64,000 bases of DNA, taken from Methylobacterium sp. E-065. GTDB lineage: Bacteria > Pseudomonadota > Alphaproteobacteria > Rhizobiales > Beijerinckiaceae. The first letter of the stretch is position 1. Each line of letters opens with the position of its first letter. The notes under the pieces were generated by a model. The model saw only the letters and a list, made by a program, of their open reading frames with translations, searched no databases and was not told where the DNA came from. This document shows positions 2,250-6,352 of the stretch, one piece after another. The stretch spans positions 1-64,000 of the forward strand of contig NZ_JAKSYD010000149.1 of NCBI RefSeq assembly GCF_022829605.1. Direction: 5' to 3'. A program made the translations under genes and the position numbers.

Positions 2250-3350
2250 TCAGGAGCGCCAGCGCAACTCCTTGCGCTCCAGTGGGTTCGTGAACGCGCG
2301 TTCGTCGCGGGCCGCTTCGAGCGCCTCGCGCTTCAGGCGGAAATACCATTGCGACGGCAGATCGCCCTGGCCGAACAGCACCATGGTCGGCTTGCGATCG
2401 AGACCGTCCTGCGCCTGCTGGAGCACCTGCTGGTCCTGGGTCAGGAACTGCCGCATCAGCGGGCGGGCGACCGGCTTCAGCAGGTTCAGCGCCGGCATGC
2501 TCCAGTAGAGGGCGTTGGTGAGCAGCGTCCGGTCAGGCGTGAGCGGCGTCGCGAAGGTGTAGTTCGCCACGCGCTTCTCGCCCGCACGGATCCGCTCCAG
2601 GCGCACGCCCGGCAGGCGGAACTCGATCTCGACCTCCGGCACACCCCCGAGCAGCCGGTAGACCGGGGAACTCGTCGTGGTGGCGTGACTGGTCATGACG
2701 AAGCCGTGGGGGACCGGCTGGAAGGTCTTCACCTTCTCGCGGAGCTGCTTCGACGGTCGGAACCACCACGAATCGTGGACGAAGGCGACATGGCCGGGAT
2801 CGACGAGGCTCAGCGTCGTGAGATCGAAGGAAGCCTCGACCACGAGTTCGACCACCAGGGATCCGGCCGGCGTGAAATCGAGCTCGGGTAAAGCGGCGAT
2901 GTCGCCACCGGCCGGGCCGATATGGGGGTTGACCCACAGGAAGCCGGCACTCTCGCGGATCGGGAAACGCTGGACCTGGATGCGCGAGAAATCGGCGACG
3001 TCATGCTCCGATAGGGTCGGGACGTCGCGGCAACGCCCATCCGTGCCGAAGCGCCAGCCGTGGAACGGGCACATGAGCGAGTCGCCGTCGAACCGGCCCT
3101 TGGACAAGGCCATGCCACGGTGGGGGCAACGATCCCTCAGCGCGAAGGGGGCACCGTCCGGGGCGCGGCCGAGCACGATCTGCTCGCCGTTCAGCTCAAC
3201 CGCGCGCAGACCCGCCTTGCTGCCGGCCTTGCCGAGGTTACGGGACTGGCCGACGCAGTACCACGCGTTCCCGAGCGGCTGGCGCATCGCGTCGGGATCG
3301 AGGGCAGCCTCGTCGGCGGGACGCGGCGGGTTGGTGAAGGGCGCGTTCAA
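2250..3350 (-). CDS. Rieske [2Fe-2S] non-heme iron oxygenase, PAO/CAO-like
   Basis: 366 residues from a TTG at 3350; an in-frame stop lies shortly upstream. The only nearby ATG alternative is at 3287, just before MRQPLGNAWYCVGQ, so the first 21 residues are uncertain. The Rieske domain holds CPHRG (Cys75, His77) and CPFHGW (Cys94, His97). The catalytic mononuclear iron site is DPGHVAFVH (Asp184, His187, His192), with a further Asp in LTQDQQVLQQAQ. The LTQDQQVL segment resembles pheophorbide a oxygenase/Tic55-type enzymes rather than biphenyl-type dioxygenases. It needs a reductase, which is not encoded next to it. Likely activity: hydroxylation or demethylation of an aromatic, tetrapyrrole or isoprenoid substrate, not determinable here. 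Divergent from the micro-ORF at 3528. Confidence 0.85.
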   Translation of the reverse strand: MNAPFTNPPRPADEAALDPDAMRQPLGNAWYCVGQSRNLGKAGSKAGLRAVELNGEQIVLGRAPDGAPFALRDRCPHRGMALSKGRFDGDSLMCPFHGWRFGTDGRCRDVPTLSEHDVADFSRIQVQRFPIRESAGFLWVNPHIGPAGGDIAALPELDFTPAGSLVVELVVEASFDLTTLSLVDPGHVAFVHDSWWFRPSKQLREKVKTFQPVPHGFVMTSHATTTSSPVYRLLGGVPEVEIEFRLPGVRLERIRAGEKRVANYTFATPLTPDRTLLTNALYWSMPALNLLKPVARPLMRQFLTQDQQVLQQAQDGLDRKPTMVLFGQGDLPSQWYFRLKREALEAARDERAFTNPLERKELRWRS

Positions 3351-3512
3351 GGCGGCTCGGGCTGCGGGCGGGATGCCCCGTCATACGCCCGCCGGCCGAT
3401 GCGGGAAAGCGCGGGCCCGTGAAGTGCAGATTTCGGGAGGACAAACGGGCGCAGGCGCGGGGCTTCACAAGCCGGCTCGCACCACCTACCTTGCCTTCAT
3501 CCGCAACGAACG

Positions 3513-3526
3513 AAAGGAGGTGATCC
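3513..3526 (+). promoter_or_regulatory. Extended Shine-Dalgarno sequence, 14 bases complementary to the 16S rRNA 3' end
   Basis: The bases AAAGGAGGTGATCC at 3513-3526 are the full complement of the 3' end of alphaproteobacterial 16S rRNA (GGATCACCTCCTTT). Ordinary Shine-Dalgarno sites match 4-7 bases. The GGAGG core ends 7 bases before a GTG at 3528, ideal spacing for initiation. No other gene in this window has a comparably long match. Confidence 0.75.
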
Positions 3527-3527
3527 A

Positions 3528-3599
3528 GTGTCTCATTGTCATCAGCCGTGTGTCTCGGCTCATCGGACCTGGACCGTCGCCTCCAGCGTGTCGTTCTAA
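3528..3599 (+). CDS. Micro-ORF of 23 codons with perfect ribosome binding site
   Basis: GTG start at 3528, TAA stop at 3597-3599. The peptide begins (M)SHCHQPCVSAHRTW and ends TVASSVSF; it has two Cys, three His and one Trp and no membrane segment. It is far below the length usually annotated, but is placed 7 bases after the GGAGG core of a 14-base Shine-Dalgarno match and is followed, 58 bases after its stop, by a strong intrinsic terminator on the same strand. Together these look like a short dedicated transcription unit of roughly 200-300 bases. It could be a small protein, a leader peptide or the visible part of a dual-function small RNA. No function is claimed. Divergent from the Rieske oxygenase gene. 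Confidence 0.55.
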   Translation: MSHCHQPCVSAHRTWTVASSVSF

Positions 3600-3657
3600 G
3601 ACGCGCTAGAGACCCGATTTCGGGACAGTTCCGCCGGACGACATGGTTCGGCAATGG

Positions 3658-3692
3658 AAGGGCCACCCTCACGGGTGGCCCTTCGGCTTTTT
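3658..3692 (+). terminator. Rho-independent terminator of the micro-ORF transcript
   Basis: An 11-base perfect stem (AAGGGCCACCC at 3658-3668 with GGGTGGCCCTT at 3673-3683) closes a 4-base loop and is followed by CGGC and five T (3688-3692). It points along the plus strand and ends six bases before the stop of the convergent coiled-coil gene. On the minus strand the stem is not followed by a T-run. Confidence 0.85.
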
Positions 3693-3697
3693 AAGGC

Positions 3698-4264
3698 TCA
3701 GCGCTTCTGCATCTGGAACAGCGGCTGGGCCAAAGCTTCGGTCCGGGCGCGCCACACGTCGCGCTCCTCCCGCAGGGCGTCACGCTCGGCCACCAGGGCG
3801 GAACGCTCGCCCGCAGCCCGCTCGCGCTCGGTCTGCATCGCTGCGCGCTCGGTCTTGAAGCGCTCACGCTCCGCGCGGATCTCCGCCTGTTCCGCCCGCA
3901 GATCGTCGAGGGAGCCGATCTCATCCTGGATATGCGCACGCAGGGTGCGGATCTCCTCCGCGAGCAGCGCCTGCAGTTGGTCCTGATGCTCGGCCTCCAG
4001 GCGGAGCTTGGCCTTCAGCATCAGGTTCTCGGCCATCAGCTCGGAGATGTCGGCATCCTCGGTCTCGGCTGCCTGCGACGGCCCGGCGGGCGCCACAACC
4101 CGCGGCGACCACGCGGTCTCGGCGGCACCGGGTCCGGCCTTCGGATCCGGGCGCGCTGCGTCGGCCGGGCTGTGAGTCTTCATCGCCGAGAGCCAGTCCC
4201 GAAGCGGCCCGGGCGCGGGGCGGCCGCTGGACTCGGGCGGCAGGGAGCGGGCGGGTTCCGACAT
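3698..4264 (-). CDS. Coiled-coil protein of unknown function
   Basis: 188 residues from the ATG at 4264 (MSEPARSLPPESSG); a longer open frame upstream adds a basic, low-complexity stretch and is less likely. Residues 1-65 are rich in Pro, Ala and Gly and look disordered. From about residue 68 to 183 the sequence is a nearly continuous Glu/Arg/Ala/Leu coiled coil (AEIRAERERFKTERAAM and similar), ending LFQMQKR. No enzyme motif, membrane segment or signal peptide. Such proteins often act as scaffolds or polar/cell-division factors, but nothing here indicates which. Function unknown. Confidence 0.7.
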   Translation of the reverse strand: MSEPARSLPPESSGRPAPGPLRDWLSAMKTHSPADAARPDPKAGPGAAETAWSPRVVAPAGPSQAAETEDADISELMAENLMLKAKLRLEAEHQDQLQALLAEEIRTLRAHIQDEIGSLDDLRAEQAEIRAERERFKTERAAMQTERERAAGERSALVAERDALREERDVWRARTEALAQPLFQMQKR

Positions 4265-4543
4265 GGGGCGGCGTCCTGAACGAATTCGCCTCGTAGACAA
4301 TCGGAACATGCTTAACGATCGGTAAAAGGGGGCGGTCGGCACGACAGAGGCCGCAACCCGGAAATTGACTTTACCGGCCAGCGCGGCTACGCCGCGCGCT
4401 CCCGATCCGTAGCAGATCGACCGATGCCAAGCCGACCGGTCCCGTGAGACCGGAGGTCAACGCCCGACAGCGCGTGTGCGCCCTCGGGCGCGATGAGTGT
4501 TGGCTGATTGGCGATGGCGGGATCCGCCGGCCGAGGCAGTCCC

Positions 4544-4777: not shown

Positions 4778-6352
4778 ATGTTCGAAGGCCTGTCCGATCG
4801 CCTCTCCGGCATCCTCTCGGGACTGACGCGCCGCGGTGCGCTCACCGAGGCCGACGTCACCGCCGCCATGCGCGAGGTGCGCCGGGCTCTGCTGGAGGCC
4901 GACGTCGCCCTCGAAGTGGTGCGCGGCTTCACCGATAAGGTGAAGGAGAAGGCGGTCGGCGCCGTCGTGCTCAAGTCGGTGACGCCCGGCCAGATGGTCG
5001 TGAAGATCGTCAACGACGAGCTCGTGGCGATGCTCGGCACCGATGCCGAGACCGTAGATCTCAACGCCCCCGCCCCGGTGCCGATCCTGATGGTCGGCCT
5101 GCAGGGCTCGGGCAAGACCACCACCACCGCCAAAATCGCCCGCCGCCTCTCCGAGCGCGACAAGCGCAAGGTGCTGCTTGCCTCCCTCGACACCCGCCGC
5201 CCAGCCGCCATGGAGCAGCTCGCGGTGCTGGCCAAGCAGGTCGGCGTCGAGAGCTTGCCGATCGTGGCCGGCCAGTCGGCGGTGCAGATCGCCAAGCGCG
5301 CCATGGAAGCGGCCCGACTCGGCGGCTTCGACGTGGTCATGCTCGACACCGCCGGCCGCACCACGGTGGACGAGGCCCTGATGGCCGAGGCCGCCGAGGT
5401 GAAGGCCGCGACGCGGCCCCACGAGGTGCTGCTGGTCGCCGACGCGCTCACCGGCCAGGACGCAGTCAACACCGCCCGGGCCTTCGACGAGCGGCTCGGC
5501 GTCACCGGCATCGTGCTGACCCGCATGGACGGCGATTCCCGCGGTGGCGCGGCGCTCTCGATGCGCGCCGTCACCGGGAAGCCGATCAAGCTCGTCGGCG
5601 TCGGCGAGAAGGTCGATGCGCTGGAGGAGTTCCACCCGTCCCGCGTCGCCAACCGCATCCTCGGCATGGGCGACATCGTCTCGCTGGTCGAGAAGGCCGC
5701 CGAGACCATCGACCACGAGCAGGCGCTCCGCACCGCGGAGAAGATGCGCAAGGGCAAGTTCGATCTCGAAGACCTGTCCATGCAGCTCGCCCAAATGGAG
5801 AAGATGGGCGGCATCGGCGGCCTGATGGGCATGCTGCCCGGCATGGGCGCGATCAAGAAGCAGGTCGAGGGCGCCAACCTCGACGAGAACATGTTCAAGC
5901 GCCAGCGGGCGATCATCTCGTCGATGACCCCACAGGAGCGCAAGAACCCCGATCTGCTCAAGAACAGCCGCAAGAAGCGCATCGCGGCGGGTTCAGGCGT
6001 GGACGTCTCGGAGATCAACAAGCTCCTGAAGATGCACCGGACCATGGCCGACATGATGAAGGCGATGGGCTCCGGGAAACGCGGGATCGGGCAGGCGCTC
6101 GGCTCGATGTTCGGCCTCGGCGGTGGCGGGATGGGCGGGGGCGGCATGGGCGGCATGCCCGGCCTGCCCCCCGGCATGCCGGAGCCGACGCCGGAGCAGA
6201 TAGCCCAGATCGAGAAGCAGTTCGGCGGCAAGCTGCCGCCGATGCCGCCGGGCCTCGGCGGGGGCGGCATGCCCAAGATACCGGGGCTTCCGGGCCTGGG
6301 CGGTCCGAAGCTGCCGGGTCTCGGTGGGATCATGCCGGGGAAGAAGAAATGA
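4778..6352 (+). CDS. ffh: Signal recognition particle protein Ffh (SRP54)
   Basis: 524 residues, ATG start. GTPase of the signal recognition particle: with the SRP RNA it binds signal sequences emerging from the ribosome and docks with FtsY at the membrane. The N domain is residues 1-95; the G domain has the P-loop GLQGSGKTT (107-115), DTAGRTTVDEAL and TRMDGDSRGGAAL; the methionine-rich M domain follows (MEKMGGIGGLMGMLPGM and onwards). The C-terminus is extended by about 70 residues rich in Gly, Met and Pro ending PGKKK, typical of Rhizobiales Ffh. It is the first gene of a four-gene run with chorismate mutase, rpsP and rimM, whose starts overlap or follow closely. Confidence 0.98.
   Translation: MFEGLSDRLSGILSGLTRRGALTEADVTAAMREVRRALLEADVALEVVRGFTDKVKEKAVGAVVLKSVTPGQMVVKIVNDELVAMLGTDAETVDLNAPAPVPILMVGLQGSGKTTTTAKIARRLSERDKRKVLLASLDTRRPAAMEQLAVLAKQVGVESLPIVAGQSAVQIAKRAMEAARLGGFDVVMLDTAGRTTVDEALMAEAAEVKAATRPHEVLLVADALTGQDAVNTARAFDERLGVTGIVLTRMDGDSRGGAALSMRAVTGKPIKLVGVGEKVDALEEFHPSRVANRILGMGDIVSLVEKAAETIDHEQALRTAEKMRKGKFDLEDLSMQLAQMEKMGGIGGLMGMLPGMGAIKKQVEGANLDENMFKRQRAIISSMTPQERKNPDLLKNSRKKRIAAGSGVDVSEINKLLKMHRTMADMMKAMGSGKRGIGQALGSMFGLGGGGMGGGGMGGMPGLPPGMPEPTPEQIAQIEKQFGGKLPPMPPGLGGGGMPKIPGLPGLGGPKLPGLGGIMPGKKK

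Follow-up and report, generated by a model that had tools for sequence, protein, structure and literature searches.

The question raised by this locus is what an extraordinarily long Shine-Dalgarno (SD) sequence does in front of an open reading frame of only 23 codons, in a 64-kb stretch of DNA from Methylobacterium sp. E-065 (positions 1 to 64,000 of contig NZ_JAKSYD010000149.1; the whole stretch analyzed is referred to as the window). The first-pass annotation had described a 14-base SD complement of the 16S rRNA 3' end, a GTG start 7 bases past GGAGG with an open frame of 23 codons, and a terminator with an 11-bp stem 58 bases past the stop. The start and frame were confirmed at 3528-3599, and the terminator was also found, its exact figures being a 12-bp stem located 57 bases past the micro-ORF stop. 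The features of the unit were assigned as follows.

3504..3511, plus strand: leader CAACGAAC, the probable 5' end region of the RNA; the RF01867 match begins here.
3512..3527, plus strand: super-Shine-Dalgarno (super-SD) GAAAGGAGGTGATCCA, complementary to the 16S rRNA 3' tail (exact match, genus identity).
3528..3599, plus strand: micro-ORF MSHCHQPCVSAHRTWTVASSVSF, GTG start, 23 codons, TAA stop at 3597-3599 (start/stop turnover, constrained length).
3533..3540, plus strand: 5' arm of the P1 helix TCATTGTC, codons 2-5, pairing with 3650-3657 (RF01867 structure, permutation test).
3569..3584, plus strand: 16S-tail mimic CTGGACCGTCGCCTCC within the ORF (codons 14-19), a complement of the SD whose partner in the minimum-energy fold is 3516-3528.
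3650..3657, plus strand: 3' arm of the P1 helix GGCAATGG, abutting the terminator (covariation; identity of segment 3646-3658 in the genus, 0.982).
3657..3684, plus strand: intrinsic terminator, 12-bp stem and 4-base loop, then the T-rich tail GGCTTTTT.
3504..3682, plus strand: full RF01867 (CC2171) match, 85 bits against a cut-off of 75, E 5.5e-16.

This anatomy (SD, frame, P1, mimic, and terminator) is well supported by comparison with related sequences. The unit stands alone, because both neighbors are on the minus strand: it is divergent from the Rieske oxygenase gene on the left (2250-3350), and convergent with the gene on the right (3698-4342; no Pfam match), beyond which an ffh ORF is located (4778-6352). 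Other RNA motifs in the window were the ffh motif (RF01793; 4446-4499, plus strand; 60.3 bits against a cut-off of 35) upstream of the ffh ORF, and the sul1 motif (RF03058; 63907-63962, plus strand; 77.8 bits against a cut-off of 36.2) near the window end. No match to a sigma-70-type promoter was found for the unit. A leader or attenuator of a downstream gene was rejected because the next gene (3698-4342) is on the opposite strand, and rough ORF clustering of ±1.5 kb around the loci revealed no same-strand downstream gene common beyond close relatives; neighborhood clusters were found mostly among close relatives. Upstream of five Rhodobacterales-type loci is a queuosine-precursor-transporter gene, and downstream of two is arfB (ribosome rescue); the copies L214 and L233 are located between these genes, and arfB also adjoins L197 (ArfB identity was confirmed for L214 and L197). 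This adjacency is suggestive in that it fits a ribosome theme, but concerns three loci only.

The 14-base complement noted at first pass proved to be real, extraordinary, and conserved in relatives. AAAGGAGGTGATCC at 3513-3526 (plus strand) was the sole exact match in the 64 kb, while five matches against 3.6 expected were obtained when up to three mismatches were permitted; since the inexact matches were close to the expected number, the exact match alone is meaningful. The duplex of the super-SD with the 16S 3' tail of the host, which we take to end in CTGGATCACCTCC, was predicted at -26.0 kcal/mol, against a best value of -15.3 and a median of -8.6 kcal/mol for 40 long ORFs in the window, the best of up to six starts being taken for each. 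The 16S rRNA was not found in the genomes searched for it (RF00177, 0/1; tail pattern, 0/6). According to passages of PMC10783764, the anti-SD of the class Alphaproteobacteria is CCUCCUUU; since this comprises 8 bases, the UGAUC extension of the unit exceeds the class norm.

When the seven bases between GGAGG and the start were left free in a search of same-family genomes, TG[A/G]TC was present in 55/55 matches from 54/119 genomes (52 A and 3 G), the extension counts here and below coming from related genomes and not being independent events. All of the 58 best-scoring covariance-model loci, picked by a score that favors the consensus, carried AAGGAGGTG[A/G]TCNN[A/G]TG (49 A and 9 G), and 12 of 14 lower-scoring units from class genomes matched by the model alone also had TG[A/G]TC. 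With G in place of A, the same rRNA base is still paired, by a wobble. Exceptions were TGACC in G009 and TGTCC in G220 and G309, the latter form being one base shorter with the start 6 bases past GGAGG; a pattern with 6 free bases gave 42 matches in 38/372 genomes, which look like background except for the units of G220 and G309. Within the genus, the identity of the SD was 0.991, and 14/16 positions were invariant (72 sequences). By this comparative evidence, the super-SD is kept as a complement of the 16S tail. An antisense fragment of a 16S gene was rejected, because the rRNA complement stops after the SD stretch and the window holds no rRNA match. A literature search with the motif letters gave no lead, the matches listed looking by title like uses of rRNA primers.

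The unit corresponds to RF01867 (CC2171 sRNA) with 85.0 bits against the cut-off of 75, over positions 1-159 of 159 of the model, and was the sole match in the genome; the consensus of this family holds the leader, SD stretch, P1, and terminator. The remark that such a unit is skipped by annotation was therefore half true, failing in that Rfam lists it as the sRNA CC2171. A lack of conservation outside the strain, named at first pass as evidence against the unit, did not occur: a match was found in 79/79 genomes of the genus sample, although only in separate pieces in G757 and G814. At G757:C2:1348187-1349080, the two ends of the unit match approximately 780 bases apart, as if something had been inserted between them. 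Methylobacterium also has divergent forms of the unit: the second copies L193 and L194, from genomes G756 and G758, encode peptides resembling those of other genera, and L175 (G814) and L191 (G757) have longer, altered ORFs.

Using the Rfam model (E ≤ 0.001), matches were obtained in 58/99 family genomes, 25 reaching the cut-off, and in 85/385 class genomes, 14 reaching it. When 20 divergent loci were scanned with Rfam, none exceeded the RF01867 cut-off and the sole match was a tRNA; much of the superfamily is below this cut-off. The SD/start pattern AAGGAGGTGATCNNRTG was found in 84/385 class genomes, once in each except G012 (twice), while the reversed pattern was absent from all 385. Both pattern and model identified 62 class genomes, the pattern alone 22, and the model alone 23. 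Six of these 23 carry AAAGGAGGTGGTC (L006, L009, L010, L015, L016, and L019), and 14 of the other 17 contain a unit (TGATC in 6, TGGTC in 6, TGACC in G009, and TGTCC in G220), with no SD with a start in G122, G226, and G239. A recognizable or pattern-matching unit was present in 104/385 class genomes, among which a few pattern matches may be strays, and approximately 280/385 yielded no unit by the pattern or model searches.

In the phylum sample, the pattern was detected in 49/86 Alphaproteobacteria against 8/213 other Pseudomonadota. Six of these eight non-alphaproteobacterial matches head ORFs of 141-293 aa, and two (L239 and L240) head micro-ORFs of 18 codons; in a class sample around one of the latter, the pattern was found in 2/229 genomes, namely the one already known and another whose ORF has 11 codons. 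Named genomes, scanned with a pattern that demanded TC after the start and so was silent on codon 2, yielded at least 117 stretches, and among the 80 matches listed, 75 had an alphaproteobacterial taxon, including genera of Rhizobiales, Rhodobacterales, Sphingomonadales, Caulobacterales, Rhodospirillales, and Acetobacteraceae; three others were labeled 'Proteobacteria', and two more (one a Nealsonbacteria MAG) head ORFs of 109 and 141 aa. The spread in the genus, class, and phylum samples rejects a chance origin of the SD/start pattern and, as judged from these sequences, extends the unit over the class Alphaproteobacteria. The loci examined were the best 30 model matches each of the class and family samples, and most, not all, of the genus, class, and phylum matches. 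The same super-SD precedes ORFs of 55-59 aa with (by eye) signal-peptide-like N-termini at L083, L065, L332, L230, and L231, a possible second group of genes with a super-SD that encode small exported proteins. In four non-alphaproteobacterial genomes (L242-L245), AAGGAGGTGATCTG precedes a protein of 292-293 aa with VVWCPGCGHHGI near its start, which is an ordinary gene with a very long SD.

Evidence that the micro-ORF is translated comes from its evolution. With the ORF ending at the same place, the stop codons were TAG 14, TGA 8, and TAA 5 in the Rhodobacterales type (27 sequences), TAA 16, TGA 13, and TAG 1 in the Sphingomonadales type (30 sequences), and TAG 9, TGA 4, and TAA 1 in the Bradyrhizobium type (14 sequences); in 72 Methylobacterium sequences with 22-24 codons, they were TAA 36, TAG 21, and TGA 15. 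On four trees, these distributions correspond to at least 12 (Rhodobacterales), 7 (Sphingomonadales), 3 (Bradyrhizobium), and 8 (Methylobacterium) stop-codon changes, and to at least 30 in total. Members chosen by the sequence near the start or inside the ORF, in order to avoid selecting on ORF length, had the length of their group in 27/27, 30/31, and 14/14, and 72 of the 76 genus loci had 22-24 codons (the remaining four: 25, 25, 26, and 33). Start codons also interchange: the 58 best model loci use GTG (48) or ATG (10), and the 13 lower-scoring units that keep the usual spacing use TTG (7) or ATG (6), the start being followed by TC in all 13. Among 209 distinct N-termini, frame 0 measured 24.0 ± 7.0 codons and was never as short as 10, in a set limited to ORFs of up to 60 aa and thereby trimmed in frame 0. 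The standard deviations in frames +1 and +2 were 30.5 and 32.5, and 59 and 82 cases, respectively, had 10 codons or fewer.

Furthermore, the CTGG motif was in frame with the start in 49/59 non-redundant members, at a varying distance from it, while the lengths from stop to terminator were spread over three phases (40, 36, and 25). The interchange of starts and stops at a fixed position and length shows, as an evolutionary test, that the micro-ORF is translated; its destruction in relatives, named at first pass as evidence against the unit, did not occur. A translated sORF, one of the traits of a dual-function sRNA, is accordingly present here on purely evolutionary evidence, and the description of RF01867 as non-coding does not hold for the unit, given the stop turnover and a length constraint in frame 0 only. 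Since 'non-coding' is a label that the RF01867 model does not score, membership by score stands.

The conservation profile of the genus (72 sequences) follows the same anatomy. Identity was 0.915 in the leader against 0.67 just upstream, 0.994 in codons 1-7, 0.948 in the mimic segment, and 0.882 in the terminator, and fell to 0.635 in codons 8-12, 0.681 in codons 21-23 plus the stop, 0.593 in the spacer, and 0.39-0.68 in the flanks. Conservation is confined to the leader, SD, P1 arms, mimic, and terminator, and of all the evidence, this sequence profile argues most strongly for the anatomy named above being the functional one.

P1, in which codons 2-5 are paired with the bases before the terminator, is already part of the Rfam consensus structure. 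Its arms are TCATTGTC/GRCAATGG here and in relatives, and TCATGGTT/GACCATGA, ATGAGATT/AATCTCAT, GTGTTTTG/CGAAGCAC, CATGAAT/ATTCATG, and CACCAAA/TTTGGTG in other types. When the arms were swapped among 73 distinct 5' arms, the native score was 11.04 against 8.53 ± 0.25 for permuted pairs (0/20,000 as high), and for 24 coarse clusters 11.67 against 9.28 ± 0.42 (0/10,000); the latter set comprised 309 of 321 distinct pattern loci after ORFs had been limited to ≤60 aa and seven strays discarded, and a terminator was found in 277 of them. P1 with at least four pairs was formed in 67/144 minimum-energy folds against 19/144 after arm shuffling, and P1 at the standard place scored 12 or higher in 31/73 arm types against 9% of swapped pairs. 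The Bradyrhizobium type is without P1 at the standard place. On these sequence comparisons, P1 is compensated across subfamilies.

The mimic has the consensus CTGGAYC...[GA]CCTC[CT] (in summary form, CTGGAYC...GCCTCC), a near copy of the presumed 16S end, and its commonest form, CTGGACCGTCGCCTCC, accounted for 30 of the 76 distinct members with a detected motif. In the minimum-energy fold of the unit, whose energy is 5.9 standard deviations below that of shuffles (z -5.9), the mimic pairs with 3516-3528. Non-redundant sets of 144 or 142 representatives (the latter restricted to ORFs of ≤40 aa) were used for the tests. The SD-mimic test relied on was a duplex test permitting bulges, in which the SD against the downstream region gave a mean z of -1.14 and the reversed SD -0.15 (142 representatives; paired Wilcoxon p 7e-13); single sequences with z below -1.645 numbered 46/142 against 14/142 for the control. 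The ungapped version was weak (mean z, 0.70 against 0.05; 27/144 at p ≤ 0.05). The mimic is clear in the MSHC and Rhodobacterales types, and in most of the latter it is located 50-65 bases past the stop (e.g., CACCTCC), while L324, a Rhodospirillaceae MAG, has a perfect copy of the 16S tail (GGATCACCTCC). Types with peptides ending in EQPS or EQPL have RCCTYC at a fixed position approximately 16 bases before the stop, with weak energy. As far as sequence complementarity shows, the SD is complementary to a mimic in its own RNA.

Because the SD-mimic helix and P1 cross, they would be mutually exclusive in a nested fold, or would form a pseudoknot containing both. For the unit, a fold with the SD free was predicted to cost 3.9 kcal/mol (-86.9 against -90.8) and to contain nine P1-type pairs. 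The median cost for the 142 representatives was 3.6 kcal/mol, P1 being formed in 104/142 of the SD-free folds (a count without a shuffle control), and opening the 5' arm of P1 had a median cost of 5.3 kcal/mol. The cost of the SD-free fold may be within the range that a 30S subunit could tip.

We propose, with a probability of about 0.5, that the unit is an autonomous two-state RNA toggled by the 30S subunit and translation. An RNA of approximately 185 nt with a micro-ORF would adopt two crossing folds: a locked state, in which the super-SD (3516-3528) is paired with the mimic (3569-3584) and both the SD and start are hidden, and an open state, in which codons 2-5 are paired in P1 with the stretch just before the terminator, leaving the SD free. 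The tail of a 30S subunit would outpair the mimic for the SD and pull the RNA open, and the ribosome would then cross the mimic up to the stop, so that 30S availability may toggle the RNA. The output would be an altered state of the RNA in trans, i.e., its stability, its pairing with other RNAs, or the holding of 30S subunits, because no same-strand gene directly follows the terminator here.

This proposal has to be weighed against a functional micropeptide, namely, a strongly translated mRNA whose 23-aa peptide acts. The evolutionary test of translation is consistent with such a role, as are the near constancy of MSHCHQP...RTWTVASG within Methylobacterium and the presence of Ser at codon 2 in 117/129 distinct members outside the genus search, encoded by four different codons. 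However, the peptide starts differ between subfamilies (MSHCHQP..., MSRVILERGVGT..., MSHGSAERS..., MSYTKRCHLAGIAR, and MSSDFVFQNV...), which have little in common but Met-Ser. Within the genus, the conserved codons hardly vary even at wobble bases, which points to the RNA, and the C-terminal codons are free to vary. The segment of RNA encoding the conserved residues TW..AS is complementary to the SD, a pairing that explains them. The peptide had no Pfam match, and a literature search with the start MSHCH gave no lead. Mean hydropathy was -0.06 (258 distinct peptides, 10% above 0.5), and a type I toxin, for which a hydrophobic membrane peptide is expected, was rejected. The very highly translated micropeptide put forward at first pass is weakened by the divergent peptides, invariant wobbles, and complementarity of TW..AS to the SD, and we regard it as improbable; the best reading is that selection mainly keeps translation of the ORF, not the peptide. 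The other suggestion made there, a sensor of or competitor for 30S subunits, appears to fit the anatomy better and may be retained.

It is similarly improbable that the unit is an ordinary trans-acting sRNA that pairs with targets via some loop, with an ORF regulating its own stability only. Membership of an Rfam family, a 215-nt transcript tabulated for the RF01867 locus of Mesorhizobium huakuii (PMC5596092), the terminator of its own, and neighbors that are not common beyond close relatives agree with this role; on the other hand, besides the short leader, conservation in the genus is only in the SD, P1, mimic, and terminator, leaving no obvious seed. A sponge for anti-SD regulatory RNAs (the alpha-r8 type, represented in Caulobacter by SisA-D, for which CrfA already serves as a sponge) is a live rival, since the SisA-D/CrfA system, as described in passages of PMC12559287, indicates that competition between SD and anti-SD sequences is used in the class. 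SisA-D act there via a 10-mer with an anti-SD signature and are sponged by another RNA, and the super-SD would pair with anti-SD motifs. These RNAs resemble the unit in RNA-RNA competition via SD/anti-SD sequences, but are separate, Hfq-bound, and act in trans, and the same passages mention no micro-ORF in them. The conserved TG[AG]TC extension matches the 16S tail past the anti-SD core, and a sponge requires no translated frame and no conserved stop, which makes this role quite unlikely. We assign an equally small chance to a dedicated 30S competitor, in which the open RNA would hold 30S subunits SD-bound before initiation and lower initiation on other mRNAs: the duplex of -26 kcal/mol is in line with this, and P1, which begins 5 bases past the first base of the start codon, would probably clash with the mRNA channel, whereas ribosomes are released from a translated ORF that retains its stop.

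The proposed two-state RNA may be compared with known systems. Translational pseudoknots of the rpsO type trap 30S subunits, with a ribosomal protein as the ligand and a long gene as the output. Crossing helices control the SD and start region in these and would do so in the unit; here, however, it is the 16S tail that the crossing element resembles, and most ORFs have 14-36 codons. The dual-function attenuator rnTrpL/peTrpL of Sinorhizobium meliloti is likewise a small alphaproteobacterial RNA, with an ORF of 14 aa according to passages of PMC10117765, but rnTrpL, a leaderless RNA, is produced upstream of trpE, while a super-SD heads the ORF of the unit and nothing follows the unit on the same strand here. 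CC2171 (RF01867) itself is filed as an sRNA gene, and the published passages on it contain no ORF, super-SD, or 16S-tail mimic; it is named in a list of families with a revised structure in PMC11701678, and is not named in the small-RNA papers on Caulobacter, S. meliloti, and Bradyrhizobium PMC4117421, PMC5988900, PMC11005374, PMC10117765, and PMC5082802.

More tentatively, the two-state RNA may act as a sensor of ribosome supply across Alphaproteobacteria, its fold reporting free mature 30S tails and being read out via translation of the micro-ORF. Such an RNA would combine a sequence complementary to the 16S 3' tail with one closely imitating it, and the sequence of its micro-ORF would hardly matter. 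No description of an RNA imitating the 16S tail to gauge the translation machinery was found in the main texts of the open-access literature (Landt 2008 may mention the ORF). If this is true, many Alphaproteobacteria would possess a very small RNA that gauges the translation machinery itself through imitation of the mRNA-binding tail of the ribosome. An RNA family filed as non-coding would hold a frame selected for translation rather than for its product, which bears on the practice of judging small ORFs by peptide conservation.
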